A DNA stretch of 64,000 nucleotides from the NCBI GenBank assembly GCA_947034885.2, contig OX344752.2:19863386-19927385 (forward strand), given 5' to 3'. The position numbers were made by a program, and so were the translations under genes. Under the pieces are notes generated by a model. The model ran no database searches. It had not been told where the DNA came from and was given only the letters and a program-made list of their open reading frames with translations. How positions within the stretch are numbered: the first letter of the stretch is position 1; every line of letters starts with the position of its first letter. Positions 15,895-55,812 of the stretch are shown here, one piece after another. This DNA is from Thuidium tamariscinum (taxonomy: Eukaryota; Streptophyta; Bryopsida; Hypnales; Thuidiaceae).

Positions 15895-15902
15895 GTTTTA
15901 TC
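15895..15902. repeat. Left target-site duplication of the giant hAT element
   Basis: GTTTTATC lies immediately outside CAGGGTTG. The identical 8-mer lies immediately outside the other end at 32821-32828. Eight bases is the target-duplication length of the hAT superfamily. Confidence 0.95.
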
Positions 15903-15927
15903 CAGGGTTGTCTATCCTGACGTGACG
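15903..15927 (+). repeat. Left terminal repeat of the giant hAT element
   Basis: CAGGGTTG is the perfect 8-bp outer repeat. CTGACGTGACG at 15917-15927 recurs inverted near the right end. Between these the two ends diverge, which is usual for hAT elements with short TIRs. Confidence 0.9.
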
Positions 15928-15952
15928 TGGGCTTTTCCCGTCGGGATGTCAT

Positions 15953-16465
15953 GACGCGTCAGTCGTGACGCGGCAGGACGCGTCAGAGGCCGTCCCGAAT
16001 GCTGACGGCGTCGTCGACAGCGCGGATGAAGTCCGTCGACAGCGCGCAGACGGCCTGTCGGCCGCCTCGACGACTGGCCGTCGCGTGGATGGACAGAGCG
16101 TCTGCGGCTTTAGGGTTTAGGCGCGACGGCCAGGCCGTCGCCTCAACAGTTTTCTGTTCAGCGGACGGTCACGGCGTCCAGAGTTCGTCCACGCAGCGGG
16201 GACGGTCAGGCCGTCGTCTGGACGGCCAGAGCGTCCGCGGCTTGTGCACTTCGACGGGACGGCCAGGCCGTCGCCTCGACAGTTTTCCGTTCAGCGGACG
16301 GTCACGGCGTCCAGAGTCCGTCCACGCTGCGGGGATGGCCAGGCCGTCGTCTGGACAGCGGGACGTCCGTTGGACGGCCAGAGCGTCTACGGGGACGGCC
16401 ACGACGTCCCGTCCGTGGCTGTCCACAGTGCGCCAACGGACAGGCCGTCGACTGGACGACTGCTG
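15953..16465. repeat. CCGTC array A: left subterminal and transposase promoter
   Basis: GC-rich DNA densely packed with GGCCGTC, CCGTCGA, GACGGCCA and GCGTCCA. It begins with GACGCGTC palindromes (15953-15990) and includes a ~133-bp near-tandem duplication (units starting at 16125 and 16258). It ends ~15 bp upstream of the transposase TATA box. The long open frames in it on both strands come from CpG-rich, stop-poor composition. Confidence 0.85.
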
Positions 16466-16479
16466 CCAAGCCTTCACAG

Positions 16480-16486
16480 TATATAG
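16480..16486 (+). promoter_or_regulatory. TATA box of the transposase gene
   Basis: TATATAG, directly downstream of array A and ~220 bp before the chosen start codon. Transcription would begin near 16510-16520. Confidence 0.7.
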
Positions 16487-16615
16487 CACGAGCCGTGTAT
16501 TTGAAGGTCACTTTTCCTTGTTGATCTCTGCTCTTATGACCTGGTTGGCACACAGCCATTGTACTAGAGTGAAGTCCAAGAAGAGTGTATGGGAGGAACA
16601 CTTGCTGTGAAAGCA

Positions 16616-16673
16616 GTAAGTGTTATTTCCACATCACATCCAAACAGAATACTAACCTGTTTTGTTTGTGCAG
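16616..16673 (+). other. 58-bp intron in the transposase 5' leader
   Basis: The donor GTAAGT follows AAAGCA, a CTAAC branch-point match lies ~20 bp before the end, and the acceptor is TTTGTGCAG. Its length is not a multiple of three, so an ATG at 16589 upstream of it is not in frame with the transposase after splicing. This supports ATG 16700 as the start. Confidence 0.75.
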
Positions 16674-16699
16674 TTTCAAGTGAAGAACCAGTGGGAGCA

Positions 16700-19600
16700 A
16701 TGGGAGGGGGGAGGACACAATGGGAACCCTGGTATAGGCTACAACAGGATGGGAAAGTGGAATGCAAGTTCTGCAAAACGAAGATTAGTTACCGCAAGGA
16801 TTGCTTGCTTTTCCACTTGGGTTATAGACGAAATGACACCCTCCCCGGAGTGAGAATGTGCAACAAGGCCAGTGCAGCAGTGAAGGCTATGTTTTTCAAT
16901 TGTGGGGGGAATGTTCCTACAGTCTCCGAAGACGAAGAGGAACATGATGTGGAAGTGACATCACCGTCATCGAATCCAACGAGGGTGGTACGTGATCAAG
17001 AATTACCCAATGCTTCAATCTCAATTAGTGGAGGGGGAGGAAATACTTTGGGCCAAAATTCTCAAGTTCGATCATCAGAGGCGCCTGTCCCTTCTTCGAC
17101 CCATAGTCGACCGCTGAGGCAATTATCCGTACAAGAAGGGATGGACACATCCAAAAAGCAAGTACTAGACAAGAAGTGGGCGAAGTTTTTCTACGAAGCA
17201 AATATCCCATTCAATGTGGTGAGACACCCCGCTTTTGTGGATGCCGTGAAATCAACCTCCGAGTCCAGAGTTCTTTACAAACCTCCACCTTACAATGCCA
17301 TACGTACGAAGCTCATGACATCAACAAAGGAGGAAGTGGCTGCACTGGTAGCGGAGAAGACAAGGGGGCCTATCCACAAGTACGGTGTCACTATATGTTC
17401 TGACGGATGGGACAATGTCAGCCATCGGCCATTGATCAATGTAATGTTGTCGTGCACGAGTGGAGAAGTATTTTTGGGATCGGTGGACACTATAGGCGAA
17501 AGCAAAGACGCTGTTTATGTGGCTAATCGCATGATCGATTACATTGACGCGGTGGGGGGACAGAATGTGGTGCAAGTTTGTACGGACAATGCGCCAAACA
17601 TGCGTTTGGCTGGTACTCAAATTACTCGCGAATTCCCTCACCTATATTTCCAAGGTTGTTCCGCGCATGCACTTGACCTTCTACTTGAAGATTGGGGCAA
17701 GCAACTTTGGGTGGTCAAAATGGTAAAGAAAGCAAAATCAATCGTGAAATTCATTCGCACGCATCACATGCCACTCGCCATTTTCCGACGACATTCTCCT
17801 AACCTCATGTTGAAGAATCCCATTGAGACACGTTTTGCGACCATGTTCCTCATGATCGAGCGTTTGGCCGAGGTCAAGGAAGCCGTGGAATCTACAGTCC
17901 ATGATCCGCAGTGGAACGAATATGTGAGGTCCTCGAACGCTGCAATACACAATAAGGCAGAAAAGGTTCGACGTAGGGTTCGAAAGGACGAGTTCTGGAG
18001 GAGGTGTCTCAACTTTGTGCATATGGTAGAGCCTGTGTTGGTGGCTCTTCAAGAGTTTGATGGAAAACATCCGGTCATGGGCAAAGCATGGATCGTGATG
18101 AAAAAGCTAGAAAAGCATGTTTTGGCTTTGAGGAATCGACCATTTTCATTGGAGGCAAATTATGCGGATCGTGCTGAATACGCGTTTTACGAACGATGGG
18201 ATTTGATGAAGACCGATTTGCACTACGCAGCTGCCCTGCTCAATCCATTCCTCCTTGATGAAATTATACTAATAGACGATAACGAGGCAAAGGAGGCCAT
18301 TCTTAGAGTACTACGCAAATTGGCAGTTGGAGGGTTGGGATATGCAGCCGCTTTGTTTGAGTACCAATCCTTTCGAGACTGCCGAGGCATGTTCGCTGGA
18401 CTTCCCGATGTGAATACTTTGAATTTGGAGCCGCATGAATGGTGGGATCTTCTCGGAGCTGGTGCTCATACGCTTACACCTATTGCAAGAAGGATCCTTG
18501 CACAAGTATGTTCCGCATCATCATGCGAACGCAATTGGAGCATGTATTCATTTGTCCACAGCAAGTCTCGCAACAGATTGACATCTGAGCGCGCGGAGGA
18601 ATTGGTTTACATTTATACCAATTCGAGGACTCTCAGGGAAAGGGGTGCGGCGGATGTAGTACGATGGTACACTGAGAACATGTTGTCCGAAGATTCCATG
18701 ACAACCGAATCAGATGGCTTGGATCGTGGTTCGGTTATGTCAGACGCTAACAACGATGACTCAGACGACAGTTCCTATGGCGATGATGATCCACCATTTC
18801 GGCCTTTGGGTGAAAGGCAAGAAAGGGGTCCCCTAATTGACGAGTCCGTATTTGACTTTGATGGCGCGGATAATGATGGAAATGACCACGGGGGAGATGA
18901 GGATGGAAATGACAACGGGGGAAATGATGGCAGTCCGTCATGGATGCCACGTACATCGATTGCGGGGTCAAGTGGTGGAAATCAAAACGAAGGGGTTGAA
19001 GCCCCACCTTCGCCGGTTATAGGGCCGATTGAAGAAGAAATGCGTACCCGGAGACATGAACATGTCGTTGTGGTAGAAAGACAAGGCGAAGATGAGGTCG
19101 TTGCCACAGATCCCCGAGTGGCGCGGAACACTCGTAGCCACAGATCCCCCATTGGTGTCGAGATAGACTTTCGCACATTGCGTCGAGACACGATCGGCGT
19201 GCGACCACAAGCGCCTAGCTTGGATGATCCACCCGTCCAAATTTCAGCACGGCCTTCATCTTCTAGAGTCCGCCCCAACCAAGAAACTCCATCAGTCGGT
19301 ACACGATTGGCCGGTCTCTTCCCAACTCTAAATATGATCGAGCGAAGGAATGCACCTCCATCCTCAGAACAACCCGTTGCACCGCCTACACGCACTACTA
19401 ATCGATGCCCGCGGCCACGTGAAGAAGGCCCTACCAATGAACGAGTGAGTAGAAGAACACGTAGAAGGCTAAGAAGGGAAGAAGCGGCGAGTATACCATT
19501 TCTCCGCGAAGGTCTTCTCCCTGGACCAACGGGGCCCAGTGTGGATACCGCTGGAGATGGAGTAGGAGGGCGAACAATCCGCAGATTGGCTTCTATAGTA

Positions 19601-19834
19601 GGTGAAGGCTCAGACAGCCCTGACAACTCACCAAGCGAAGTCGGTAGGGCAACGTCCAATCATGATGATGAATCCATGGGTCCTAGTATAGGTGAAGATG
19701 GTGAAGTTCCGGGAGATAGTGATTATAGAGGGACTCGTAGAGGTCCTCCACCTGCACCTCAAGACAATCAAGCAACCACGCGAGAGGCTGCTGCAAGGAG
19801 CATGGCTCTTAATCGTACACGTGCAAGACGTTGA
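16700..19834 (+). CDS. hAT transposase: BED finger, DUF659-type RNase H fold, hAT dimerisation region
   Basis: A protein of 1,044 residues counted from ATG 16700 (the frame is open upstream to 16589, but that ATG is separated by the leader intron). The BED-type zinc finger lies at residues ~8-54 (C22, C25, H39, C54), for DNA binding. The catalytic core follows from ~155: SDGW with D235 and CTDNAPN with D296 are the two expected aspartates, then QGCSAHALDLLLEDW. The C-terminal hAT dimerisation region around 600-640 has CERNWS with E610 in the place of the catalytic glutamate. All three acidic residues are present, so it is likely active. Residues ~665-1044 form an unusual tail: acidic Asp/Asn/Gly-rich, then Arg- and Pro-rich, with no fold I recognise. 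It acts in the nucleus, cutting and joining element ends, and its gene follows array A and a TATA box. Confidence 0.93.
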   Translation: MGGGRTQWEPWYRLQQDGKVECKFCKTKISYRKDCLLFHLGYRRNDTLPGVRMCNKASAAVKAMFFNCGGNVPTVSEDEEEHDVEVTSPSSNPTRVVRDQELPNASISISGGGGNTLGQNSQVRSSEAPVPSSTHSRPLRQLSVQEGMDTSKKQVLDKKWAKFFYEANIPFNVVRHPAFVDAVKSTSESRVLYKPPPYNAIRTKLMTSTKEEVAALVAEKTRGPIHKYGVTICSDGWDNVSHRPLINVMLSCTSGEVFLGSVDTIGESKDAVYVANRMIDYIDAVGGQNVVQVCTDNAPNMRLAGTQITREFPHLYFQGCSAHALDLLLEDWGKQLWVVKMVKKAKSIVKFIRTHHMPLAIFRRHSPNLMLKNPIETRFATMFLMIERLAEVKEAVESTVHDPQWNEYVRSSNAAIHNKAEKVRRRVRKDEFWRRCLNFVHMVEPVLVALQEFDGKHPVMGKAWIVMKKLEKHVLALRNRPFSLEANYADRAEYAFYERWDLMKTDLHYAAALLNPFLLDEIILIDDNEAKEAILRVLRKLAVGGLGYAAALFEYQSFRDCRGMFAGLPDVNTLNLEPHEWWDLLGAGAHTLTPIARRILAQVCSASSCERNWSMYSFVHSKSRNRLTSERAEELVYIYTNSRTLRERGAADVVRWYTENMLSEDSMTTESDGLDRGSVMSDANNDDSDDSSYGDDDPPFRPLGERQERGPLIDESVFDFDGADNDGNDHGGDEDGNDNGGNDGSPSWMPRTSIAGSSGGNQNEGVEAPPSPVIGPIEEEMRTRRHEHVVVVERQGEDEVVATDPRVARNTRSHRSPIGVEIDFRTLRRDTIGVRPQAPSLDDPPVQISARPSSSRVRPNQETPSVGTRLAGLFPTLNMIERRNAPPSSEQPVAPPTRTTNRCPRPREEGPTNERVSRRTRRRLRREEAASIPFLREGLLPGPTGPSVDTAGDGVGGRTIRRLASIVGEGSDSPDNSPSEVGRATSNHDDESMGPSIGEDGEVPGDSDYRGTRRGPPPAPQDNQATTREAAARSMALNRTRARR

Positions 19835-20215
19835 GAGCATCTAGGGAAAAAAATGTCTCCATGTCATCTTATGTAATATTGTGTAAGGCTGAATACCTTG
19901 CATGTGAAATTCGGCATTAATTATAAATACTACACATGCTTCCTGTGCTCATGTAGGGCGCATGGGTAGAAATTTTTTATCTTCACATGTCACAAATTCT
20001 ACAACGCAACAACGGATCCATTTATGCATATTTGTCCCAAGAAATGGAAATATTTGCTTTGTCGTTTGCCATGTATTCTATACTCTTAAATTTGGATTCA
20101 TTCTTCGAAGCTGGTTACCTACATGCTTGGATATTTTGAGATCATTATGGATTTTGCCCTGTACAAGAAAACAAATGTAATCTGGAATATGGAGAAAATG
20201 ATTGAAAGTACTGAA
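19835..20215. other. 3' flank of the transposase gene
   Basis: AT-rich; AATTATAAAT and AATATTGTGTAAGG near 19870-19930 are plausible polyadenylation context. No gene is seen before the nested TTAA element. Confidence 0.4.
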
Positions 20216-21152
20216 TTAACCCCTAAAGGACCAAGAGTCCCCTCGGGGAACTTTAAGAATTAGGGCAGGTACTTGTGACTTCAATTTTCAATGAATTTTA
20301 TTGAAATTTTCACATAATATAAAAAAACTGATTAGCTCCGTGGAAATATTAATTTTTTTTTCAATTGGTGACCGGGAGCAAAAGTTATGCCATCGTAAAC
20401 ATAATTTTCATGTTGCCGGGCAGAAAAAAAAATCTACAAAAACTTCAAAATTAAAAAAATAATTTTTTTTTCTTATAGATTATATTTTTGTCTACAAGTA
20501 AAGCTTTGATTCATTCCATTTGGATTAGTAATGTGAAAGTTATGAACAATCTTGTTTTTCGGGCAATCTAAGCATCTTCTTGAAAAAATAACTTCTAGGA
20601 TTCATTTGTGAATGCAATTTCCACAATTTAAAAAAAAAAATTGTTGGACAAGGTTGATTTTGTTTTCTAGAAGACTAGAACAATCTCACCATTGGGATTA
20701 TTGTGTTTCAATTCCATCTATGAGATATTTGCAATTTAGTTTTTCTTTCAATCTTGGACCTACATCTACTTGACAATTTTTTAAAGAATGACAAAAAGTC
20801 TTTATTTTGTGAATTTTTTTTCCTAAGCTCTTAGCTTAATTTCTCAATAAAAAAATTTTAATTCAAGGTCTGTAGTGCAAAAAGATTACATAAATGGAGG
20901 ACAAAGTCATTTGAAGTTGCAAACTAGTGTTTAAGAAAACTTTGTTTTCCAACTTTGAATGCTCATATCTTCCTATCTATACGGTCAAACTTCATGAAAT
21001 TTTCACCACATCATCTTAGTTAAGTAAAGTTCAAGATCCTATGGTTAGATTCTAAAAATTTAGTTTTTTTGTTTTTCATGGATGAATGGAACAAAAATGG
21101 CAGTTTTGAGTGGTTTTGGGTTGAAAAACGGCCGTGGTCCTTTAGGGGTTAA
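20216..21152. mobile_element. TTAA-flanked TIR element (piggyBac-like), nested in the giant hAT
   Basis: TTAA at both edges, then inverted ends CCCCTAAAGGACCA and TGGTCCTTTAGGGG, enclosing ~930 bp of AT-rich DNA without a transposase frame. TTAA duplications with C-rich ends are the hallmark of piggyBac. Relatives lie at 47723, 56725 and 61797. It separates the transposase from the kinase-like gene. Confidence 0.85.
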
Positions 21153-21364
21153 CATGGCATTCAGTCCAAAATTTACGAAGGGACAGAACTACTCACAAAT
21201 CCACTCACCGGAATCATACTCGAATGGAACAAAAAGATTTACATATATTTATTTCAAAAAGGAGTTAGTACAAAATTCAGTGACGCAAAGTTTGTGGACT
21301 ATACTGTGGTAAAAGCAAGTACTAAGGTACGTCTACGATTACATTGCCACTAAAATACTATTCT

Positions 21365-23026
21365 CTAATCTTCATTCCTTGCTTGTTCTTGTAGAAGTGC
21401 TTGCTCCTTGCGGGCCTCGCGGTAGCAATCCACGGGTGGAGTCCAAAATAAGGGGGCGCGACTAATTCGTCCCACAGCGTACGTTACTGTGCGTCGTTGT
21501 AGTGGGTCCTCTTTGCACAATTCGCCCAATGTGGCTTGAAATGTACCAAACGCTGTATGGTCGGGAAGCATTTGCGTATTTTCGCGGTCTTTCTTCCATA
21601 TCTTCTCCGCAAGCTTCCCAACAGCATATCCGTCTGTATGTATACTAACACACGGTGCCCCATCTGCACGAGTGGGGGATACCGAAGTGCCCGCCTCTCC
21701 AGGAACATACATCAATTCAGGGGCCACCCACCAACGTTTCTGACGTGTAGCCCGCATTTGGCTTCCACATTGAAACTGGTACAAAGAATGGGTTTCTTCA
21801 TTGATACGACTAGCCATTCCCCAATCACATAGCCCAATCCACACTGTTCGCCCATCATCATTCGGAAAATGCAACATGATGTTTTCTGGCGTGATGTCGT
21901 TGTGGAGCACCGAAGATTGTTGCACCGCATTCACGATGCAAATTAACGCCCATGCAAGCTCGGTGCGGTTTCTACGATAAGCCAAGAGTCTTTTGGCTTC
22001 TTGCATCGTCTGTGGAGTTGCATGGTAGGCAAGCTCCCCGATCTCAGCATAATCTCGGTTTTTCTGGTCCAATGCGAACATGGCTCCCAATGTTCCTCCA
22101 TTCCACCATTGAGAATAACACTCCATGGTCATGTCATTTATAGCAAAAATTTTTATGACCCCTGGATGATTACATGGACAAACCAAAGCCTCGATGGACA
22201 ACTTCTCCCGCGACTTCTTCAATTGATCCACATATAGGGCTGTCTTGCCCGCCAATTCCATCATGGGGGGAATGTGCCTTGAATTTTGGAGGCTCACTTT
22301 ACGCACCCTCCCGTGCCCCCCTTCTTTGTTGTGGCCTGACAATGGAACCACCACCACTCCTCGTTCAAGAAATACCACTCCTCCCGCACCCGCTTGGCCT
22401 AGGGACAAGCTTTGGCTCTGTTGAAACCATGGGGCAGAGCGGATATTGCTGGAAGACAGCGCTCGCATTGCGTCATGCCACCAATACACCTTTTTGTGCA
22501 ACAAATGCAATGCTTGTTGCTTCGGCGCTACATCTCGTTTGAAGCCCTTTACCGATGCGGCGACTTGGGCGATGTTGAAAACACAAGTTTGCACTTGTTC
22601 GTCAAGCCAACGACGGAAGTGTTCCTTTGTGCGATCTTCAAGCCACTCATCCTCGCCCATTGTTGTCCAAAACATGTGGGTGAATTTTTTTTTAATTGTC
22701 TCCACCCCTTGCAATCCACGCGAGACGTAGGTCGTATTCAATTGAGTAATCGTATATTGCTCCAAAAAATCCAATGCCACTTCCTGCACTTTCCTGGTCG
22801 CAGCCTTCCTTGGCCAGTCGTCTGTATTCGTAGCCTTGTGCCTCCGCCTGCTCTTTTTTTTCTTGGCCCCCGAAGATTCTCCTCCAGCCGCACCACCGAC
22901 CCCTTCTCCGGCCAATACTGCCTCTGATACACAGTCAATGGATTCTGGAGACTGCTCACCAACAGGATCTCCGATGCCTGAAAACCACTCATCAACCTTG
23001 CGCTTCGACGCACCTCGCCCGTCCAT
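21365..23026 (-). CDS. Protein-kinase-like cargo protein of the giant hAT
   Basis: An uninterrupted 553-residue frame. Residues 55-64 are a strongly basic stretch (KKKKSRRRHK), likely nuclear targeting. Residues ~70-200 form a helical region I do not recognise. From ~220 the protein-kinase fold is visible: Gly-rich loop-like GHNKEGGHGR (231-240), NHPGVIKI, catalytic loop HNDITPEN (375-382, with D377 and N382), DWG for DFG (401-403), APE (435-437) and a D465xxxxG helix-F motif. The catalytic-loop lysine is Thr379, and the usual beta-3 VAxK lysine appears to be Tyr265, so it may be a pseudokinase or an atypical kinase. The start ATG directly follows a 52-bp leader intron. Codon use is GC-rich like the transposase. 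It is oriented towards the transposase and has its own TATA box and CCGTC array. Confidence 0.85.
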   Translation of the reverse strand: MDGRGASKRKVDEWFSGIGDPVGEQSPESIDCVSEAVLAGEGVGGAAGGESSGAKKKKSRRRHKATNTDDWPRKAATRKVQEVALDFLEQYTITQLNTTYVSRGLQGVETIKKKFTHMFWTTMGEDEWLEDRTKEHFRRWLDEQVQTCVFNIAQVAASVKGFKRDVAPKQQALHLLHKKVYWWHDAMRALSSSNIRSAPWFQQSQSLSLGQAGAGGVVFLERGVVVVPLSGHNKEGGHGRVRKVSLQNSRHIPPMMELAGKTALYVDQLKKSREKLSIEALVCPCNHPGVIKIFAINDMTMECYSQWWNGGTLGAMFALDQKNRDYAEIGELAYHATPQTMQEAKRLLAYRRNRTELAWALICIVNAVQQSSVLHNDITPENIMLHFPNDDGRTVWIGLCDWGMASRINEETHSLYQFQCGSQMRATRQKRWWVAPELMYVPGEAGTSVSPTRADGAPCVSIHTDGYAVGKLAEKIWKKDRENTQMLPDHTAFGTFQATLGELCKEDPLQRRTVTYAVGRISRAPLFWTPPVDCYREARKEQALLQEQARNED

Positions 23027-23027
23027 T

Positions 23028-23079
23028 CTGAAAAAAAATATGCGATGGTAAAACCAAGGAATTAGGGTTCAGTACTCAC
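23028..23079 (-). other. 52-bp leader intron of the kinase-like gene
   Basis: On the minus strand the donor GTGAGTACT and the acceptor TTTTTTTTTCAG lie one base before the ATG. A TAATTC/CTAATTC branch-like sequence lies inside. This mirrors the leader intron of the transposase gene. Confidence 0.7.
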
Positions 23080-23221
23080 AAATGTGAAAACTATCCCCCC
23101 TTCCTCAACCGAGCCTCCTCGCAAGCACCCGCGCTCCCAAGCAAGGACTGCAACCAATCCAGGGCAAGAGAGCACCGTCAGAGCAGGAGAGACTCGTGCA
23201 GAGTGGGGGACCTGGCCCACC

Positions 23222-23228
23222 TTATATA
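23222..23228 (-). promoter_or_regulatory. TATA box of the kinase-like gene
   Basis: TATATAA on the minus strand, ~195 bp upstream of the ATG, with array B beginning immediately upstream of it. Confidence 0.7.
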
Positions 23229-23234
23229 GTCGTT

Positions 23235-23672
23235 GGCGAGCCGTCGCATGGACGGCCGATCCGTCCAAGGAACTCGAAAGCCGTCGAGGGGTGTCGGGAA
23301 CTCCAAGACCGTCGAGGAGACGCGCTGAAGCCGTCGAGGGGAATGTCGAGGACGATGAGGCCGTCGACGGGACGCACCCATCCGTCCCGGGAATTTCAAA
23401 GTCGTCGTGGAGACCGTCGAGGAACTGCGAGACCGTCGAGGGGACGCGCTCGCCGTCCTCAGAATTCGGAAGCCGTCGAGGGGAATGTCGAGGACGATGA
23501 GGCCGTCGATGGGACGCACCCATCCGTCCCGGGAATTTCGAAGCCGTCCAGGAAACCGTCGAGGAACTGCGAGACCGTCGACAGGACGCACAAGCTGTCC
23601 TGGGAATTCGGGGGTCCGTCGTGGAACAAGGCCGTCCACACGACCCCACAGGGCGTCCCGGGAATTCTGAAC
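23235..23672. repeat. CCGTC array B: kinase gene promoter
   Basis: Dense GCCGTCGAGG, CCGTCC and GACCGTCGA motifs. A 142-bp unit is duplicated in tandem (units from 23331 and 23473, each containing GGAATGTCGAGGACGATGAG and ACCCATCCGTCCCGGGAATT). Open frames on both strands here are a by-product of composition. Confidence 0.85.
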
Positions 23673-23861
23673 CATTAAAGGAATCGTCGGGGAAGCACAG
23701 GGCGGTGAAGATGCCAGCGAAGACTTAATGGCAAGCCTCGTGCAACTGAAATTCCTCTACAAGGTAATAAGATAACAGGCCAGAAACCGCCCATCTAAGG
23801 GCTGACACTGAATTTTGAGAAGGTCAAAAACACAGCCTAAAGCCCTTGCCCAACCGAAGGT

Positions 23862-23896
23862 TTTAGGATTTAGGGTTTAGGGTTTAGGGTTTAGGG
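23862..23896 (+). repeat. Interstitial telomere-type repeat, five TTTAGGG units
   Basis: One TTTAGGA followed by four perfect TTTAGGG heptamers, the plant-type telomere sequence. It lies inside the giant hAT, ~190 bp upstream of array B relative to the kinase gene, so it is not a chromosome end. Confidence 0.9.
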
Positions 23897-25120
23897 TTTA
23901 AGTTCCTTTTTACTTTTGCGTAAATGAGGGTAAAATGTCTAGTTTAGTAATTTAATAACTTAAGAAGTGCATTATAATTTGTATTCGGTAATTGATCTTT
24001 ATTTTCCTAGCGTCAATCTAATTTTGCAAATTTTGAAGTAAATAAAAGAAATAACATGAAATGATTAAACTTATTGGTTCTAGTCTAAACACATACCTCT
24101 TCGGTTGATGCGTATCCGTTCTCAGTTGTGTCGTCAAAAAGCTCTACTTCCTCCCTTTCCATCTAATTTCATTCTCCCCCGTAAATTTAGGAAATAGGAG
24201 CTAATTTTAATAATTTAATCCGGCTTAATTAGCATTTGCTATTTGATGGTCACACTATAACTCCTTGAGGAACTTAAATCATTTCCGTACAATGACTTTG
24301 CCTAAATCTAATTCAAGCGTACATACATCTATTTTACAAAATGGGGTCATATAAAATGCCTAATTGAATTCTTCAACCCAATTATATTGTTGTAACTTAC
24401 TAGGAATCTAGGATGTTTTTTGGTATGAAAGATGTGCATATGGATGTTTCCTACATATCTCCTCTTTGCAAATTAATGCTAATTCATCACCAATGTTTTA
24501 TAATCAATTATCATGCTAAACCATGAGTTTTGAATGAAACAATTCACCAAATACTGAATTTGACTTATGTGAAATCCACATTTGGTATGCTTGATTATAT
24601 TATGCAAAATTCGTTTCAATGGCAGAATTGGATGATCCTAAACTTGTTGGTGGGTAGTGTGTAATGTACACGGCTAAAATTTTACATTGCCTTCCAGTGC
24701 TTCATCTCATATCGAGAATGGCTGAAGTGATGGACCCTAAATTTTAGAAGTTGCCCTACGGATATGTAGGGATTTAAACTTCTCAATTTTAAATTCGGGA
24801 GCCATCCGACTAGGCATGTATTTTTTAGGAAATTAGATTAGTACTACATGTACATATTAGTATATTACTATATTGCATAATATTCTGGTCATGTAGTCAT
24901 GTACTCTACTTATGAGTTATGAAACTATGAGTTATGAAAGTATAAGTGAATGGCGAGCACTAATTAGGAATTTAGGACGGGGGCACTGGCAAGCAAGACT
25001 CCGTTAGTGGGCACCAACCAATTTTCAGAATTCAGACTCTTCTGCGGAACCCTAAACCGCTCTAATCCTCTCTTTGCCGAAGTGTATGATAAACCCTAGA
25101 AGAAAGAGTTAGAATTCCGC
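23897..25120. other. Non-coding interior of the giant hAT, left part
   Basis: AT-rich with no open frame of note. CCCTAA boxes occur at ~25050-25097 (GGAACCCTAAACCGC, AAACCCTAGAAG), as in many plant promoters, but no gene follows on either strand. Confidence 0.4.
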
Positions 25121-25123
25121 AAG

Positions 25124-25540
25124 TGTGTTAATGGTTTGAACCAAAAAAACACGTCAAAGGGTTAAAAAAGTTACCCCAAAAAAATATAGAAAGGGTTTGG
25201 AAAGAAATTGTCAAGCCCTATTCGAATAAAAAAAATGTGGAAATGGGTTGGAAAAAAATGTGTTAATGGTTCAATTAAAAAAAATAGGGAAAAGGTTTGA
25301 ATCCCCAAAATGGAAGTGGTGTGAATAAAGCAAAACGTTAATGGTTTCGGGTGTTGGGCAAAAATATATAGAAGGGATTTGGACCAAAAAATGGGTTAAT
25401 GGATCGACTAAAAAAATATGGAAATGATTCGGTTTGGAAAAAAATGTGGAAATGGTTTGAATAAAAAAAATGGGAATGGTTTGAATAAAAAAAATGGGAA
25501 AGGTTTGAATAAAAAAAATGGGAATGGTTTGAATAACAGA
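25124..25540. repeat. Satellite block 1 (GGTTTGAATAAAAAAAATGG type)
   Basis: Degenerate tandem units of ~20-50 bp built from GGTTTGAA, AAAAAAATGTGG and TTAATGG. They are the reverse complement of the motif in block 2 at 30.94-32.18 kb. Confidence 0.8.
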
Positions 25541-25555
25541 CTCGGGGGTTCACCC

Positions 25556-27130
25556 CCTTTATCTTTTGGTAACCACGTGCGATAATGGGGTATTTAATGG
25601 GGGGGTATTTATGTCCTTCTCATGTTTTTTTCCCTCCCTATTAGTAGAAATAAAGCTACCGGAGTGTATTTTAGAGTACCCTATTTTCTTTTGTAAATTC
25701 TTTGAAGGACTATTTTTGAACACCCTATTTTTTTTCTACATTTCATAATTACAAAATATTGAGAAGATCAAAAACATTGTATACAAGGAAACATGTGAGC
25801 TTCAAGGATTTTGATGAACTAAGAACATGGTGAAACGCACAGCATATGCTATCTATATGCCACTAAAGAGTTTGAAAATCAAAAATCAAAGCTACAACTA
25901 TTTATATTTCACCATTTATAAGAAAACAAAGCACACAATAGAGAAATTAAACTATAGTATACAATCCTAATTAATGCAATATTTAAAACCAATTTAAAGG
26001 CACAAGAGCATATTCACATTCATTTATATAATAAGAAAACTTAGGGAATTTAATAAGCCGATTGTGTTTAAAAACACAAGTATCAGTAAGTCTGCAAATC
26101 CATTCTAACATCTAAAATGAAGAAGTTCAAGGACCTCTTGCTCTCAAATCAACTATTATGGTAGGAAGCTCACACGGAGGTTCATAAACTATGCAGGCTT
26201 TTTTATCTGCCTAATAGGACTATAGGAGGGTCTGAACTCTGAATTGGAAAGCTCATTGTGAGGAAACTAATTGTGGATTATATTGAAGCATGCTAAGATT
26301 TGATTTTTACTATATGAATGGATGGTTTTAGAGTTACAATGGATTCAATCGTAACTAAGTGTACTTATAGGTGTCTACTAATTTTATTCAAAATAAAAAA
26401 TGGTTGTTAAACTACCTTCTTTCAAATGTGAAATTGTTTTGAAATAATGATTAATTGAAGAATTCATTTCAGTTTTTGAAAGGGACACATTTAGAAACCA
26501 TTTCAAACCATTTTTTACATGTTGCATTACTAGTTTATTCACCAAACCAGATTCTTTTAGAAACTGTGCATGTATAGATTTTCAAGGCTTACTGATCACA
26601 AATAGGGTCCTATGACAAATTGTGTTTGAAAACTAATAATTAATTCAATTTTTCTTCCAAAAAATATGAAACAACTTGTATTAGATTCCTCATCTATTTC
26701 TCCTTGACTGAAAAATAAACTAAAAATATTTTCATCTAAAGACATACACGAAAAAGGCAAATCAACTCTTAATTTAAATAAGTGCAATCTTTGCCTCCTA
26801 CCATGCATACATGGCTAACACACTTGTCACAATCATGAATCCCAAAAAAATTTAAAAAGAAATACAAGATCTGAATGAGTCACACACTTGTCACAACCAT
26901 GAATGAATCCCAAATTTTTTTAAAAAGAAATGCAAGCTATGAATGTTAACTCACTGAGCTCCAATAAAAATTATAGTATACAGGTACTGCATTGGCAATC
27001 TTCACCAGTTCACCCACATTAAAATTCTGCTGTCTTACAGCTTATTGCATCTCAACTGCCTAAATGAATACCAATTGCGTAATTGGATCCTGGCTGTCTA
27101 ATTGGATTCCACTTGCCTAATTGAAATTCA
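25556..27130. other. Non-coding interior of the giant hAT, middle part
   Basis: AT-rich. Short direct repeats at ~26815-26940 (CACACTTGTCACAA...CATGAATCCCAAA, two copies). No gene or promoter is supported until array C. Confidence 0.4.
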
Positions 27131-27150
27131 GTATATATTGGGCCCACCTA

Positions 27151-27930
27151 TTGGGCCCGTCCAGGACCTAGGCAGGCCGTCACGGGGACGGAGAGCGTCC
27201 AGAAAACCGTCCAGGAAGACGGGCCCGTCCAGGACCTAGGCAGGCCGTCACGGGGACGGAGGGCGTCCCTAAAACCGTCCAGGAAGACGGGCCCGTCGAG
27301 GACGGCTAGGGAGGACTGACCCCTCTATTGCCCCTTTTTTACCCTTGCAGAAAACCCTGGAATTTCTTTTATTTTTCACACAAATTCTTTTTTGCAAATT
27401 CTGAATTCTTATTTGGAATCAGAGACCTCGATTTAGCTAGGGGACGTGTTGAAATCTAAAATTTAATCGGCACAAATTAGGGGGGGATTTTTTACATTTA
27501 CCCTCCGGAGGGGCAATAGAGGGGTCAGTCCTCCGTGGCCGTCGAGGACCTAGGCAGGTCGTCACGGGGACGGAGGGCGTCCAGAAAACCGTCCAGCAAC
27601 ACGGACCCGTCCAGGACCTAGGCAGGCCGTCCGCAACGAATTTGGTTGCGGGCCAGAGCGTCGACCTGTCCGGGTAGGCTGTCCACAGCGGAACAGTGGC
27701 CGTCCAAGACCACGGGCAGGCCGTCACGAAGAGCCATTTTGGGCCATCGAATTTGCAATTCGGCGGAGTAATTATGGATTTTCGAACTCATGAGTGTTTT
27801 CGAACTCGTTGACGGCGCCGGACCTGTGGACGGCCTCTGTGACGTCATCCCGAAGCTATCGACGACCTCCCGAACCTCCGTCGACGCTCCCTGGACGCCC
27901 CAGCCGTCGATGGCTGTCCGCATCAACGGC
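27151..27930. repeat. CCGTC array C: RING gene promoter
   Basis: A 68-bp unit (GGGCCCGTCCAGGACCTAGG start at 27153, 27221 and a truncated one at 27289) is tandemly repeated, and part recurs from 27538. A 26-bp perfect inverted repeat (27310-27335 and 27509-27534, containing CCCCTCTATTGCCCC) frames a ~170-bp AT-rich spacer. Motif-rich DNA continues to ~27930, ~70 bp before the TATA box. Confidence 0.85.
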
Positions 27931-27998
27931 TCCAGGTGGTGCATGGCGATGTGATTAGACACAAATTAACACTCCTAACGAGGCTTGGTAATGGGGAG

Positions 27999-28005
27999 TA
28001 TAAAT
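27999..28005 (+). promoter_or_regulatory. TATA box of the RING gene
   Basis: TATAAAT, ~200 bp upstream of the start codon and just downstream of array C, as for the other two cargo promoters. Confidence 0.6.
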
Positions 28006-28205
28006 CCCAAATTCAGCCACAATTAACCTTGCTTTCTCTCTTGAGTTGCTCTGTCCTAGCTTGAAAAAAGCTTTGCATTGCAATTCGGGAGGAAGTCAAG
28101 CATTTGGCTATTGCTTTGCCACATTCCAGTTGCCCTCACGCAACAGGAGGCAGAGCATAGTCATTTGTACATACATACCGTATTGTGGCATTGTGTGCAA
28201 GTACT

Positions 28206-30569
28206 ATGGCCTTAAACCCTGGAGAGATGGTACTACATGTAGAGAACCCCCCCATGGCAGAGAACCAGGAGGTGGTAATTGCTGGAAATCACCCCCCAGT
28301 GGTAGAAAACCAGGAGATGGTAACCCATGAAGGTGAACCCCCACACAGGAGGCGTCGTGGGAACAGGAGCACTGTAGACTGGGCGACTTTCAACACTGGA
28401 GAAGTTTTGGCCGGGCACGGGTGGGAACAGGCGCTTGAGCCATGGACCCGCACCACATGTCAGAGATATGTGGACTGGGCCCACATCAACCGCCATTTTC
28501 CACGGGAGAGAAATGAGACGCAAGTGCGATCTGGCGTTGCATTGATCAAGTATTGCGTACACCCAACGTTCAAGAAGCGGTTGACCGAGGTGGCATTGGC
28601 ACTTTGGGGGACCCTCTCGAAGAAGGATGGGACCCTCGCATTGTGTCAAATGGCGTATGCGGTGGTTTTTTTGGGCAAGGACGTGGATTGGAACACGTAT
28701 CCGGCAAAACAACGGGGCGGCCGTTTCCCTGCTAAAAGCCGTAGAATTCCACCAAATCCTGAAGTGCAATTGGAGGGCGAAGGAGTGGCTGGGGCACAAG
28801 GGGACGAAGCGGCGGCCGTGGACCCCATGGAGGTCGACAATGCACCTCAAGGCGCCAACGAACAAAATCCGGTGGCTCCCGAATTGGAGGCGCCCATTGC
28901 CGGTCCAAGCGAGCCCATGCCACTCGCCATTCACCCAATTCCCCCGTCCATGACAATTAATGAAGTATTTGGAGCAAATGGGGAATTAGAGGCATTACGT
29001 GCATTGGTGATTAAGCTGCGTGAGGATGGTGCAGAAGCTGAGCGAAGGCACGAGATGGAGGTACAAGCCCACAACGCACGAGTGAAGGCTTTGGAGGAAA
29101 CGAATGCTAAGTTACTAGCAAGTAACATTGACTTGCTTGAACGTGAACGTCGCCAAAGCACGAATGGCACTCCACCATTGGATGAGGTCGTGGAGCGGGC
29201 CACATATGGTCTAATTGAGCCAGCTGATCCGTTGACGGTGCGCCGGGTGCGGCCTCGTGGTATATTCCCAACACCACATTTTCGTGGTGAGAGTTCAAAT
29301 GCGGCAACCCAATCAACAGATGCATTGGGCCAAGAGTTCATAAGCGTTGAGCGCGTGGCATACGATGCCCTTGTGGCACGAGCGGAGCGTGCAGAGGGCG
29401 AGTGCAATGAGGCCAAGGCCAACATGGAGACTGTATCAGCAGCTTTGGAGGGACTACAGGACGAGTTGGCATTTGTAAATGCCATGAAGGATAGATTGTT
29501 GCAACAAACGTCAACTACGAGGGAGCAAAAGTTGCTTGCCATGAGCAACATGAGATTGGCATGCACTTTGGCTATGAACGAGGTCGCACAACTGCAGCTT
29601 GAAGTCAGGAGAATAGCTGCACAATTTAGAGATGGTAGCCAACGTTATTTTGGCTTGAGATCGTGGGCCCGACTGGAGGATATGTTTCCAGTTACATTGC
29701 CCCAAAATCGCGATAATGAAAGCATTGATTGGGACGGGCATCCGCATCTAGACTTCCAATTCAACACCGCGAGATATCGATACGGGCCCGTGGATAGAGA
29801 AGGCAATGCCCCCTTACTGTGGCCCATAGTTCCCGAGTTTGTGAAGGATGGAACAACGTGCACGATTTGCATGGAACCGTTTGGACCCGAGGGTGGATTT
29901 TGCCTTGGAACGTGTGGACATATGTACCACCCCGGATGTCTCATTCCGCACATGGTCACAAGAAAGCGGTGCGCACAATGCAAGGCTCCTTTGCACCGGC
30001 GGTTGTACGTCCAATTTGGGTTGGAGGATTACATGCCCCCACACTTCGAGTTGAACGAAGAGAACTTGCCTGGCGATGAGAATAGAGGGAGTTGGGGTAA
30101 TGACATGATATGGATGTGGAAGTGGGGCCATGACAGTAGACACCTCGCCGTGTGCAGCGTGCAAGACATTCCATGGAACGATGATGCGGAGATTACGGAG
30201 GTGTGCAAGAAGCTGATTAGTGCGGGCGATCCAGGGCGGCGAGTATTTTTTGGCCAACTTGCTGGTGGCCATTGGGACTTGGACCGATAGGAGTTCGTGC
30301 GCCGACCACATCCAGAGAATGTGGTTTTTGACTCCAGTGGAAATCCTATCGGAATACTCCAAGACATGGATCATGAGGTACAAATGAGGTTCATCGAAGA
30401 CAATACGTTCAATGAGGTGCAAATGTTGTCAACCATTTCTTCCTACTTGCACGATCGATATGATCGGACCGTAGTGGCTACGTTGAACAGTTTGCAATCT
30501 AGAGAAGGATTGCAAGATTTTTTGAGAAATAGTATAGGTAGAGGCATTGTAGAACCAGAACAAGGTTGA
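28206..30569 (+). CDS. Coiled-coil RING-finger cargo protein, interrupted by one in-frame TAG
   Basis: From ATG 28206 the frame runs 694 codons to TAG 30288-30290, then continues in the same frame for 92 more codons to TGA near 30567. The N-terminal ~60-200 region is a compact, Trp-rich domain I do not recognise (WATFNTGEVLAGHGWEQAL). Two long coiled coils follow (about 255-320 and 380-475). A RING finger starts at residue 552: C-x2-C, then CLGTCGHMYHPGC and RKRCAQC, giving the eight metal ligands of a C3H2C3 finger, typical of E3 ubiquitin ligases. Residues after the RING are Trp/Asp-rich. The TAG is probably a nonsense change because the protein-like frame continues after it; a shorter product or readthrough is possible. 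It is expressed from its own TATA box and array C. Confidence 0.85.
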
Positions 30570-30940
30570 ATACCTTCTGGTGATGAGTTAGGCCATTAGA
30601 CGGATGTATAGTATATTAGTATTGTAAATAGTATTTGGCTATGACGACCATTTACGAGCGTTTGTTGCTCATGTTGCAAAAGTACATTTTTTGGGCAATG
30701 AAGCATTTTCATTTTTCTCGTACAACTGTATTGTCTGTTAAACACTTAAACTGAAAACTTAACCATGAACAAATGAAAAGAATACTCAATACGTTTGCTT
30801 GAAATGTATGTGCAACAAGTTCATTTAAATCCAATGCCATACTTTCACTTAAAGTAGATTTTGTAAGTTCACTTTTAGAAATTGCCAAAATTCTATTTTT
30901 TACATATGCCACAAGTATATATGCTTTTGTTTTTGATTCC
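30570..30940. other. 3' flank of the RING gene
   Basis: AT-rich; AGTATTGTAAATAG near 30617 is a plausible poly(A) region. No gene seen. Confidence 0.4.
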
Positions 30941-32180
30941 CACCATTTTGACTTTTTTTAATCAAACCATTAACCCAAGTTTTTCCCACCGCATTTTTCC
31001 ACATTTTTTTTTTCCACATGTCAAACCATAACCATTTTTTTACCCTAACCCATTTCCATTTGTTAGATTCAAATCCTTTCCATATTTTAGATTGAATCCA
31101 TTTCCATATTTTTATTAGTCGAACCATGAACACATTTTTTTAAATCATTTCTATATTTTTTTGTCGTCCACATTTCAAACCATCAACGTTCTTTTTTATT
31201 CAAAGCATTCCCATTTTATTGATTCAAACTATTTCCAATTTGAGCCTTAACCATTAAGGCATTAACATTTTTTTTCCAAACCATTTCTAAATGTTTTTTA
31301 TTCAACATTTCAAACCATGAAAGTTTTTTTTTTCAAACCATTTCCATATTATTTTTAATCAAACCCTGAACACATTTTCTTTCCAACTTATTTCCATATT
31401 TTTTTTAGTCAAACCATTAACACATTTTTTTTCACGACCCTTTCTATAAGTTTTTTTCCAACCTTTCAAACCATTGCCTTTTTTTTTATTCAACCCATTT
31501 CCATTTCTTTTTTTATTCGAAGCATTTTCATATATTTTTTAGTCGAAACATGAACACATTTTTTTTCCAAACCATTTCTATATTTTTTTGTATTCAACAT
31601 TTCAAATTATTAACTTTTTTTTAATTCAAAGCATTTCCTTTTTCTTTTTCTTTGATTCAAACCATTTCCATATTTTTTTAGTCGAACCATTAACCCATCT
31701 TTTTTCCAAACCATTTCTATATTTTTCTTTCTAACACCCTATACCATTACCGTTTTTCTTTACTCAAAACTTGGCCATTTTTTTACCCTAAACCATTTCC
31801 ATATTTATTCTAGTCAAACAATTAACACATTTTTTTTCCAAACCATTTCTAAATTTGTTTTTCCAACATTTCAACCCATTTCCATATTTCTTTTAGTCAA
31901 ACCCTAATCACATTTTTTTCCCAACCCATTTCCAAATTTTTTTGGTCGAGCCATTAACACATTTTTTTCCAAACCCTTTCTATATTTTTTTTTCATTCAA
32001 CATTTCAAACCATTAACGTTTTTTTTTATTCAAACCATTTCCATAATTTTTTTATTCGAACAATTAACACATTTTTTTTCAAAACCAGTTTTACATTTTT
32101 TCTTATTCACAATTCCAAACCATTAACGTTATTTTCATTCAAACCATTTCCTTTTTTTTGATTCAAACCACCAAAACCTT
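30941..32180. repeat. Satellite block 2 (AAACCATTTCCATATTTTTT type)
   Basis: About 1.2 kb of degenerate ~50-bp units combining AAACCATTTCCATATTTTTT, TAGTCGAACCATTAACACA and TTTTTTCC. It is T-rich and inverted relative to block 1, so a transcript spanning both could fold back. Confidence 0.85.
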
Positions 32181-32344
32181 TTTTTAAAATACAGAATATA
32201 TATTATATTTAGACTATGGAAGGCCTAAAATACAAACCATGGGAAATTATTTTTTGAGAGATGGTTAAACCTCATAGACTAATGAGAAAATTTTGATTGC
32301 GAATATGAACTCAGACTTTTAAGTCTTACAAATAAAGAGTTCCA

Positions 32345-32705
32345 GTCCACGGAGCCCAGGCCGTCCATCCTGACCGTCGACGGCACGGCCAGGCCGTCCA
32401 TCGAACCCAGGCCGTCCAACCTTCCTCTTAATCCAAGCCGTCCTTCCCAAGCGTAGACCGTACCCAGACCGTCGATCTGGAGGCGTTCGTCCAGGCCGTC
32501 CACTGGACGTCCTGTCCATCGGGGCCGTCCATACCCCGCGAGCGGGGCCGTCCCCTAAAACCGTCCACCGGATCCGGACCGTCCGCAGAACCCAGAGTGT
32601 CCATCCAAGCCGTCCAGTCAGCCAGGACCGTCCATCAGAACTGTCCACCGAGCACGTCCTTCCAGGCCGTCCACGGAGGTCGTCCGTGAGGGCGTCCACG
32701 ACCGC
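32345..32705. repeat. CCGTC array D: right subterminal region
   Basis: CCGTCCA, GGCCGTCC and CCGTCGA recur about every 15-25 bp up to within ~115 bp of the right terminus. No gene start lies next to it, unlike arrays A-C, so a role at the element end is more likely here. Confidence 0.85.
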
Positions 32706-32773
32706 TGTCACGATTTTTCATCCTCTGTCGCGGATTCTGTCGTGAATTTCATCCTGACGGACGCTCGGCTCCC

Positions 32774-32820
32774 CGTCACGTCAGCGGACGGACGGACGTG
32801 ACGCAACGGAAGCAACCCTG
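32774..32820 (-). repeat. Right terminal repeat of the giant hAT element
   Basis: It ends CAACCCTG, the inverse of the left terminus, with CGTCACGTCAG at 32774-32784 inverse to the left CTGACGTGACG. Confidence 0.9.
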
Positions 32821-32828
32821 GTTTTATC
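32821..32828. repeat. Right target-site duplication of the giant hAT element
   Basis: GTTTTATC, identical to 15895-15902. Confidence 0.95.
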
Positions 32829-34065: not shown

Positions 34066-35509
34066 TCAGTAAGCAATCACAGCAAACAGTTCCAGAGTCT
34101 TCAACTTACGTAGGTTACTGAACCCTTTCCCGGTCTCTACAATCGGGTCAAGCAAACGCTCCGCCGAATCAATTCGCTGGGGCACCGGGACCCCCACACT
34201 CCCAGCACCAACATCAAACCTCGCTTTATACACGAAATACATCACCACCAACACCAACCCAGAGTACACACTAAACACGGCCTGCAACCCCCCGACGACT
34301 ACTTCGAGAACAACCTTCGCCCACACGGGCATTCCCGTAGTCATAATCCCGTTCTTCGGGAAACTGAACACCACCGCCGATACCACCATTGAGTACACAC
34401 TAAACACCGCATCCAACCCCGTGATGACCTCTCCGAAAACAATCTTCGCCCACACGGGTATTCCATGGAACATCATCTCAGGTTTCGGGAATTCGAAACT
34501 CAACACCACGGATAGTACGATCCCAATGAGCGTGACAGTGACAACCGTCCACACTCTTCCGTTTCGCACCAACTTCGTACTCCGTTTCAGCGCTTCTCTT
34601 CCGTAGTTTCCAGGCTCCAGTACGGCTATGACTAGCCCCAGTGCAAAGACGATGGAGTAGTAAACGAAGGCAGCGAGGAAGAGAAAAAGACAGAAAAGAG
34701 AAGCGAAGGGAAGAATGGGGTGCGACCAGTCCGCATCGGTGAACGTGCTTACGTAGAGGAAGCCGGCAAAGAAGGAAATGAAGAAGAAGCAGAGGACGAA
34801 GATAGATAGGGATATCCAGAGTTGGGTTATGAACATGCGGAGATAGGCGTAGGGGAGGAATTTGAAGACTTTGGGGAAGGTGAAGCGGTCGGCGGCGGCG
34901 CGGGTGGAGGTGTAGAGGTAGCCTATGATATAGAAGACCGCGCCTGCGCTGAGAGTTTCCACTACCGCAATCAAGAAGAAGAGGAAGAGTCCCGCGACGA
35001 ATATCCATGTGAAGGTCATTGTGAGTGAGAGGTCGCCTAGTGCCAGGTCGGTAATCTACAGAATTGAGAGCCAAAGAGTTTTAGGTACACAAGCAAGGCC
35101 AATTCTCGAATTGAAGCTAGCATGGGGAAACAGTTCCCGAACTCTTCCAGAATTGAAGCATGGCAAATAAGTTCCCAAGTTTGGGAATATTAAATATGCA
35201 AGTGTTCCGAAATCTTGAACTTGGGGATAGAAAGTTCCCGTACTCTCAACTAATTTGGACGTGGGAAGAGAGGAGGAACGTCGGTACCTGCGTAGTGTTG
35301 ACAGAGCCCTCGACCGTGCTGTTGACGGGAAGCGGCGTAAAGGATGGTGAACTGAACAAAGTTGGAAACACTGAGAAAATCGAGAGCGGGAGGTAGAAGG
35401 CGAGGTAGAATGGCAGAAACAGACGGTAGTGCTTGTGCAACAGTCTCGCTGATTCCTTGAAAATGGATGTCGCGCCCCATCTCTCCATCTCCTCCGGACG
35501 CATCTCCAT
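34066..35509 (-). CDS. PBB-family multi-pass membrane protein, copy A (with internal 43-residue duplication)
   Basis: Two exons. Exon 1, 35509-35288, gives 74 codons with MEMRPEEMERWGATSIFKES, the family's 'IFKES' N-terminus, and one membrane segment. The donor is CAG|gtaccg. Exon 2 is 35055-34066 (acceptor TTCTGTAG, phase 0), with the stop at 34066-34068. Total about 403 residues with six to eight hydrophobic spans and the conserved patch LEPGNYGREALKRSTKLVRNG. Copy A carries an in-frame tandem repeat of 43 codons (129 bp; GAGTACACAC at 34262 and 34391) around PVWAK...AVFSVYS, single in copy B, which adds a membrane segment. A gtaagt near 34109, kept in all copies, could be a last donor, leaving the C-terminus uncertain. 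Plant relatives are annotated as polyadenylate-binding protein 1-B-binding protein; the biochemical role is unknown to me. Confidence 0.8.
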
Positions 35510-39349: not shown

Positions 39350-40616
39350 TTAACTTACATAGGTGACCGATCCCTTCCCCTCCACAATCGGGTCAAGCAA
39401 ACGCTCCGCCGAATCAATTCGCTTGAACACTGGGATCCCCGCGCTCCCAGCAGCAACATCAAACCTCGCTTTATACACGAAATACATCACCGCCGACACC
39501 ACCATTGAGTACACACTAAACACCGCATCCAACCCCGCGATGACCACTCCGAGAACAACCTTCGCCCACACGGGCGTTCCCGCAGTCATAATCCCGTTCT
39601 TCGGGAAACTTAACACCACGGATAGTACGATCCCAATGAGCGTGACAGCGACAACCGTCCACACTCTTCCGTTTCGCACCAACTTCGTACTCCGTTTCAG
39701 CGCTTCTCTTCCGTAGTTTCCAGGCTCCAGTACGGCTATGACTAGCGCCAGTGCAAAGACGATGGAGCAGTAAATGAAGGCAGCGAGGAAGAGAAAAAGA
39801 CAGAAAAGAGAAACGAAGAAAAGAAAGAGGTGCGACCAGCCCGCATCGGTGAACGAGCTGAAGTAGAGGAAGCCAGCTAAGGAGGAAATGAAGAAGAAGA
39901 AGATGACTAAGATGGATAGGGTTAACCAGAGTTGGGTTATGAACATGCGGAGATAGGCGTGGGGGAGGAATTTGAAGACTTTGGGGAAGGTGAAGGGGTC
40001 GTCGTCGGCGCGGGTGGGGGTGTAGAGGTAGCCTGTGATGTAGAAGACCGCGCCTGCGCCGAGAGTTCCCACTACCGAGGTCAAGACGAAGACGAAGAGT
40101 CCCGCGACGAGTATCCATGGGTTGATCGTTGTGAGTGAGAGGCCGCCTAGTGAGTCGATAGTCTACACAATTGAGAGCCAAAGAGTTTTAGTTACACAAG
40201 CAAGGCCAATTCTCAAATTGAAGCTAGCATGGGGAAAAAGTTCCCGAACTCTTCCAGAATTGAAGCATGGCAAATAAGTTCCCAAGTTTGGGAATATTAA
40301 ATATGCAAGTGTTCCGAAATCTTGAACTTGGGGATAGAAAGTTCCCGTACTCTCAACTAATTTGGACGTGGGAAGAGAGGAGGAACGTCGGTACCTGCGT
40401 AGTGTTGACAGAGCCCTCGACCGTGCTGTTGACGGGAAGCGGAGTAGAGGATGGTGAACTGAACAAAGTTGGAAACACTGAGAAAATCGAGAGCGGGAGG
40501 TAGAAGGCGAGGTAGAATGGCAGAAACAGACGGTAGTGCTTGTGCAGCAGTCTCGCTGATTCCTTGAAAATGGATGTCGCGCCCCATCTCTCCATCTCCT
40601 CCGGACGCATCTCCAT
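39350..40616 (-). CDS. PBB-family multi-pass membrane protein, copy B
   Basis: Exon 1 is 40616-40395 (74 codons, nearly identical to copy A), donor CAG|gtaccg. Exon 2 is 40162 to the stop at 39350, entered in phase 0 after acceptor TTGTGTAG. Total about 344 residues: one hydrophobic span in exon 1, then the spans WILVAGLFVFVLTSVV, QLWLTLSILVIFFFFISS, FVSLFCLFLFLAAFIY and others, with the conserved LEPGNYGREALKRSTKLVRNG patch. It lacks the 43-residue internal repeat of copy A and so probably shows the ancestral form. Its tail differs from copy A because of a small length change near 39380. Both exons are open, so it is likely functional. It sits ~2 kb from TLC copy 2 and is transcribed in the same direction. 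Confidence 0.82.
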
Positions 40617-55730: not shown

Positions 55731-55812
55731 AACTATCGTAGCTAAAGACAATAGCAAAAAAGAAAAGAGAAAAAGAGAATAGCAAAACGAGAGACAAATC
55801 GTGCTGATAACA

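Follow-up and report, generated by a model that had tools for sequence, protein, structure and literature searches.

Elements of the hAT superfamily (Ac/Ds, Hermes, and Tol2) are usually a few kilobases long and carry one gene. The window analyzed here (i.e., the whole 64,000-nucleotide stretch of Thuidium tamariscinum DNA) contains a far larger candidate, in which a transposase gene is accompanied by a kinase-like gene and a RING-type gene. This locus raises the question of whether the three genes move as one element and, if so, what a kinase and a RING protein would do for a transposon.

The element (family 1) occupies positions 15903..32820 of the window (plus strand; 16,918 bp; ends CAGGGTTG/CAACCCTG), with CAGGGTTG as inverted ends at 15903-15910 (+) and 32813-32820 (-). 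It is flanked by an exact 8-bp target-site duplication, GTTTTATC, read from the sequence at 15895..15902 and 32821..32828 (both plus strand). By themselves, these 8-mers are unremarkable in the window (GTTTTATC, 4 found versus 3.7 expected; CAGGGTTG, 2 versus 1.7). The borders are nevertheless settled by other copies: the termini of all 10 fetched from the host genome fall at these two positions, with a single base change at one end of one copy. The 8-bp duplications of these 10 copies were exact in seven, had one mismatch in one, and were absent from two. The features tested (8-bp duplication, short CAGGG-type inverted ends, DUF659 region, and hAT C-terminal dimerization region) place the element in the hAT superfamily; it differs from the usual members in its length (~17 kb), its three genes, and the arrays of a single word that also lie upstream of internal genes. 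The sequence-only reading had delimited a hAT element by its duplication, CAGGGTTG termini, and transposase, and had placed its size and two cargo genes far outside the usual hAT form; the fetched copies support the former, and the latter is upheld. No hAT with a conserved kinase, a RING gene, this size, or internal arrays was found in the published literature that we searched, and these features are new relative to it.

We searched the host genome (363 Mb; 19 contigs) and scored the best 43 of 756 candidate transposase loci, the window included, from which the 10 other copies were fetched. All 10 were collinear with the window copy, 15.7 to 17.1 kb long, and ~98% identical to it, and all contained the transposase, kinase, and RING regions; one had a deletion of ~0.9 kb. 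Thus, a transposase alone between the same ends, which had been named as evidence of chance capture, was not seen in any of the 10 copies traced to both ends. The RING gene lay 10.4 to 11.6 kb downstream on the same strand at 33 or more of the 43 transposase loci (0.018 expected by shifting; best 64 of 1,319 RING loci scored). Over the 11 copies, the transposase frame was stop-free in 9, the kinase and RING frames were intact in 7 each, and all three were intact in 4. We are nearly certain that this is an element whose three genes move as one unit; its dispersed, nearly identical copies are best explained by an autonomous, recently active giant hAT. At least 96 loci carry some part of family 1 (union of 5'-end, transposase, and RING matches), corresponding to ~1.6 Mb of the genome if all were full length. 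Seven further 5'-end loci were detected, six of which continue into the transposase and one of which does not; the locus L003/L037 retains 656 bp of the 5' end, followed by other sequence. Nine of the 10 other copies have a short additional unit close to the 3' end (window 32740-32820), which the window and the remaining copy lack; this divides the family into two subfamilies.

The differences among the 11 copies bear on their age. C-to-T changes (ranges over arrays, genes, and other sequence, each class pooled) affected 1.3 to 1.6% of CG sites, 1.6 to 2.1% of CHG sites, and 0.2 to 0.4% of CHH sites, compared with 0.06 to 0.10% for A/T transitions. Such a pattern is what CG and CHG methylation would be expected to leave, and the copies accordingly look methylated. 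The low rate of change at the other sites suggests a recent burst. The dN/dS values of the three genes over the 11 copies (0.47, 0.46, and 0.50; mostly singletons) gave no sign of selection on any of them.

The transposase coding sequence (16700..19834; plus strand; 1,044 aa) comprises a weak N-terminal BED finger (under the cut-off) and two regions with Pfam matches above cut-off, DUF659 (2e-35) and the hAT dimerization region (Dimer_Tnp_hAT; 6.7e-10). Its start is most likely at 16700, rather than that of a longer frame given before, because in most of the other scored copies a stop falls within the longer frame and the long frame opens at 16700. A probable 5'-untranslated region intron (16616..16673; plus strand; donor GTAAGTG, acceptor TTTGTGCAG) was predicted from the sequence alone. 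The match to Hermes-type transposases was weak (E, 5e-4 to 1e-3) and confined to residues 578-639; ICSDGW, VCTDNA, and SSCERNW can be seen in the sequence and may contain the D-D-E catalytic residues. Between this gene and the kinase gene lies a nested piggyBac-like nonautonomous element of 937 bp (20216..21152), flanked by TTAA and bounded by inverted ends of 14 bp (CCCCTAAAGGACCA). It is present in 11 of 11 copies and was therefore inserted before the burst. A stretch at L037 (116 bp; 80%) is related to it.

The kinase gene (21365..23026; minus strand; 553 aa) encodes a Ser/Thr protein kinase-like product matching Pkinase (9e-9; 35.5 bits versus a cut-off of 31.7). In an alignment of 11 rows, K261 and E279 were present in all 11, D377 in all rows reaching that position except P0007 (N) and P0011 (broken frame), and D401 in every row reaching that position; we take these to be the catalytic Lys, Glu, HxD, and DxG residues. 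Public protein data (genomes and metagenomes) yielded 10 relatives of the kinase (32 to 86% identical) and three of the RING protein (47 to 49%). The RING-H2 gene (28203..30290; plus strand) is truncated in the window by a stop at 30288-30290; a 787-aa frame is found in 7 of the 11 copies. Its product scored 27.2 bits against RING_2 (cut-off, 27.3), all eight zinc ligands (C3H2C3) were invariant in 4 of 4 aligned sequences, and a low-confidence model predicted long helices. At E values up to 1, no Pfam families other than DUF659, Dimer_Tnp_hAT, Pkinase, RING, and the weak BED were detected in the three proteins. Starships, Mavericks, and Teratorn resemble the element in their large size and cargo genes and use other recombinases or viral genes; no recombinase or viral domain of these kinds was among the Pfam matches of the three large frames.

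The most distant long relative of the kinase in the public data (P0012; 32% identical over 88%) was run against the host genome and identified a second kinase type there (best 84 of 658 candidates scored). The one such kinase that was read (locus L040) shared 31% identity with the window kinase across 506 aa. When the genome was searched with Pfam DUF659 (best 150 of 547 scored), a DUF659 locus was found 15 to 22 kb downstream, on the same strand, at no fewer than 9 of the 84 second-type kinase loci (0.10 expected). The transposase core beside the kinase at L042 was 52% identical to that of family 1 over 231 aa and defined family 2. Among the matches listed in a search with this core (best 150 of 560 scored), three groups were distinguished: 84 to 100% identity (48 loci; family 2), 61 to 75% (81 loci; family 3), and 47 to 53% (21 loci, including family 1). 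The matches at 47 to 49% in this search include a further group of DUF659 transposases, some with frames of >1,000 aa.

With pairing windows that were fixed after the offsets were seen, at least 75 of the 84 second-type kinase loci lay at a family-typical distance from a transposase of these sister families (0.18 expected). At 30 or more of them, a family-2 transposase followed downstream on the same strand at 11.8 to 23.5 kb (21 of 30 at 17.4 to 17.7 kb; 0.07 expected by shifting), and at 45 or more, a family-3 transposase lay upstream on the opposite strand at 10.1 to 17.4 kb (42 of 45 at 10.1 to 11.9 kb; 0.11 expected by shifting). Four further kinase-transposase pairs within 25 kb had other orientations. 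The length of the kinase frame followed the transposase family: a 529-aa frame went with family 2 at 29 of 33 loci, and a 557-aa frame went with family 3 at 42 of 46. For family 3, both genes were placed by search rows only. Gene order and orientation thus differ among the three families, while the kinase has been retained, and the two sister families appear, from these sequences, to carry a cousin of the family-1 kinase. The sequence-only reading had allowed that the kinase might turn out to be an ordinary host gene; in partial answer, 75 or more of the 84 loci of the related kinase are linked to hAT transposases, and nine are unlinked among the matches listed. Very probably, the kinase is a long-kept core accessory gene of a giant hAT clade.

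A short word, GCCGTC, is concentrated in four GC-rich blocks that total 2.6 kb. Counted in either orientation, it appears 44 times there, once in 47 kb of flanks, and nowhere in the remaining 14.3 kb of the element. Two of the blocks form the ends of the element, and the other two immediately precede the kinase gene and the RING gene. The 5' array, upstream of the transposase gene (15903..16500), holds 14 words (1.28 expected; largest of 1,000 shuffles, 7), and the other three hold 10 each: the kinase upstream array (23040..23720; two 142-bp tandem units; 0.83 expected; largest, 5), the RING upstream array (27150..27960; 68-bp tandem units; 0.63 expected; largest, 5), and the 3' array (32340..32820; nine in the same orientation; 0.78 expected; largest, 4). 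These expectations apply to words and array borders picked after the data were seen. All 11 copies had 41 to 53 GCCGTC each and zero outside the blocks. That the three genes by themselves lack the word counts for little (2.93 expected; 6% of shuffles also zero).

The arrays also vary in length. The kinase block was 681 bp in seven copies, 662 bp in one, and 539 bp in three (exactly one 142-bp unit shorter); the 5' block ranged from 541 to 804 bp, being ~200 bp longer in 4 of the 11 copies, and the RING block ranged from 674 to 811 bp. Coding lengths did not change over the 11 copies, except that two genes of a single copy each differed by one base. Noncoding stretches outside the blocks also differed in length, so length change is not special to the arrays; an exact whole-unit difference was seen in the kinase array only. 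Upstream of the one family-2 kinase that was read, eight GGCGAC on one strand formed an array of ~200 bp, where 0.41 would be expected and 300 shuffles gave at most 3; this array lacked GCCGTC, and a low-complexity coding-like stretch (L041 200-780) adjoins it. The RING upstream array contains a 243-bp hairpin-like insert (window 27301-27543; 35-nt arms, 94% complementary; 11 of 11 copies), and four perfect TTTAGGG plant-telomere repeats (window 23869-23896) stand beside the kinase upstream array.

The ends of hAT elements commonly hold transposase-binding repeats, which are needed there, so the two end arrays call for no new explanation. The same word upstream of the cargo genes would be superfluous for cut-and-paste and would place all three genes, as a single regulon, under the end-reading protein. 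We favor, with modest confidence, the view that the GCCGTC arrays are binding sites of an element-encoded protein. The BED-finger transposase would be the most likely reader, or else a complex with the RING protein. Reading of the arrays would pair the ends for cutting and would also switch on or de-silence the three promoters, within its own family only. The kinase and RING protein might adjust this process through modification of the transposase, or of silencing proteins of the host that are recruited to the arrays. Taken whole, this explanation (a giant hAT clade with a core kinase, an array-reading element protein, and tuning by kinase and RING) is in our judgment evenly balanced between right and wrong. 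A role in which the cargo acts on proteins had been proposed from the sequence; the arrays that precede each gene are just as suggestive of shared regulation or of anti-silencing.

The nearest precedent is found in the VANDAL elements of Arabidopsis. The motif bound by VANC21, YAGTATTAY, is densely arrayed in one orientation in noncoding parts of VANDAL21; these arrays grow and shrink by tandem repeats, and the motifs of VANDAL6 differ (PMC5735166; PMC10398659). The transposon proteins TnpA and MURA have been linked to demethylation (PMC10398659). VANDAL21 and VANDAL6 (VANA, VANB, and VANC) resemble the present element in having three genes that include a transposase, dense motif arrays, and motifs that differ between related families. 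Short-motif arrays varying by tandem repeat were found here as well, with the exact unit seen for the kinase array (3 of 11 copies). VANDALs differ in being Mutator-like non-TIR elements with another transposase and other accessory genes, and VANC activity has been demonstrated, whereas the present element is known as sequence. VANDAL membership was rejected, the transposase being a hAT transposase and no Mutator-type transposase or VANC appearing among Pfam families at E values up to 1. Ulp1 is a protease of the ubiquitin-like pathway. Some VANDALs, including Kaonashi elements, carry an Ulp1 domain (PMC13317346), by analogy with which a RING gene would seem less odd in a transposon.

Because the same word precedes the cargo genes and VANDAL21 offers a precedent, we would favor regulation or anti-silencing, with the kinase and RING protein as tuning enzymes. 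That anti-silencing is the purpose of the arrays is, by this analogy, a tentative proposal. In the resident copies, decay in arrays was similar to that in genes (CG, 1.52% versus 1.28%; CHG, 2.07% versus 1.59%); the arrays decay like the rest of the element and are therefore not protected at present. A broader and somewhat more doubtful proposal is that a giant plant hAT clade evolved self-recognition independently of VANDALs. Each family would mark its ends and promoters with tandem arrays of its own word, to be read by a complex that the element encodes; within this complex, a kinase and a RING ligase would act on host silencing proteins, so that a family activates itself alone. The usual picture of a plant hAT is one gene; this clade makes sequence-specific escape from silencing testable outside VANDALs, as well as the use of phosphorylation and ubiquitin by transposons for that escape.

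Other explanations account for parts of these data. One is posttranslational self-control without anti-silencing: the transposase would be stimulated or held back by the kinase and marked for degradation by the RING protein as dosage control, with the internal arrays serving as ordinary promoters that the genes share. This agrees with the kinase residues, the complete zinc ligands, and frames intact in 7 of 11 copies for each gene; it leaves the recurrence of the end-array word upstream of both cargo genes unexplained, and we regard it as unlikely. Less likely again is a host transcription factor that drives the arrays as GC-rich promoters, with the kinase and RING protein acting on host physiology (growth or stress) in favor of the carrier. 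The position of the internal arrays directly upstream of genes and the telomere-type TTTAGGG tract near the kinase promoter would fit, but GCCGTC is also present at the 3' end, a region without a gene start, and one factor should keep one word, yet the family-2 locus that was read has GGCGAC at the same place.

An origin by fusion of three smaller elements, with the internal arrays as relic ends, is improbable. Fusion of neighboring elements has been described for Pack-TYPE elements (PMC8903248), but exact CAGGGTTG is absent from the interior, and the near-terminal CTGACGTGAC (at most one mismatch) is confined to the vicinity of the two outer ends. That the kinase and RING genes are passengers captured by chance in a recent burst is very improbable indeed: Pack-hAT elements capturing gene pieces exist (PMC8903248) and within-family dN/dS is not low, but further families have a related linked kinase, both proteins have public relatives (RING, 47 to 49%; kinase, 32 to 86%), and both frames are intact in 7 of 11 copies. 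For the kinase, chance capture is disfavored because at least 75 of the 84 diverged-kinase loci are linked to sister hAT transposases; for the RING gene, the three public relatives are the sole argument. Pack-hAT and other Pack-TYPE elements are alike in having hAT ends with extra coding sequence (PMC8903248). They are nonautonomous with captured gene pieces, whereas here transposase and cargo are intact in many copies and a related kinase is linked to two sister hAT families; Pack-TYPE membership was rejected because 9 of 11 copies have a transposase frame free of stops.

Some further features were noted in the element and the window. An AT-rich degenerate minisatellite with 24- to 26-nt units (window 30920-32180) has an inverse-orientation copy 6 kb away (25121-25540), and this inverted pair could give rise to hairpin RNA. 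Outside the element, Ty1/copia-looking polyprotein frames of 953 and 534 aa were seen by eye on the minus strand at 51270-55757, as were two similar membrane-protein-like frames at 34066-35019 and 39350-40084, seemingly a local duplication.
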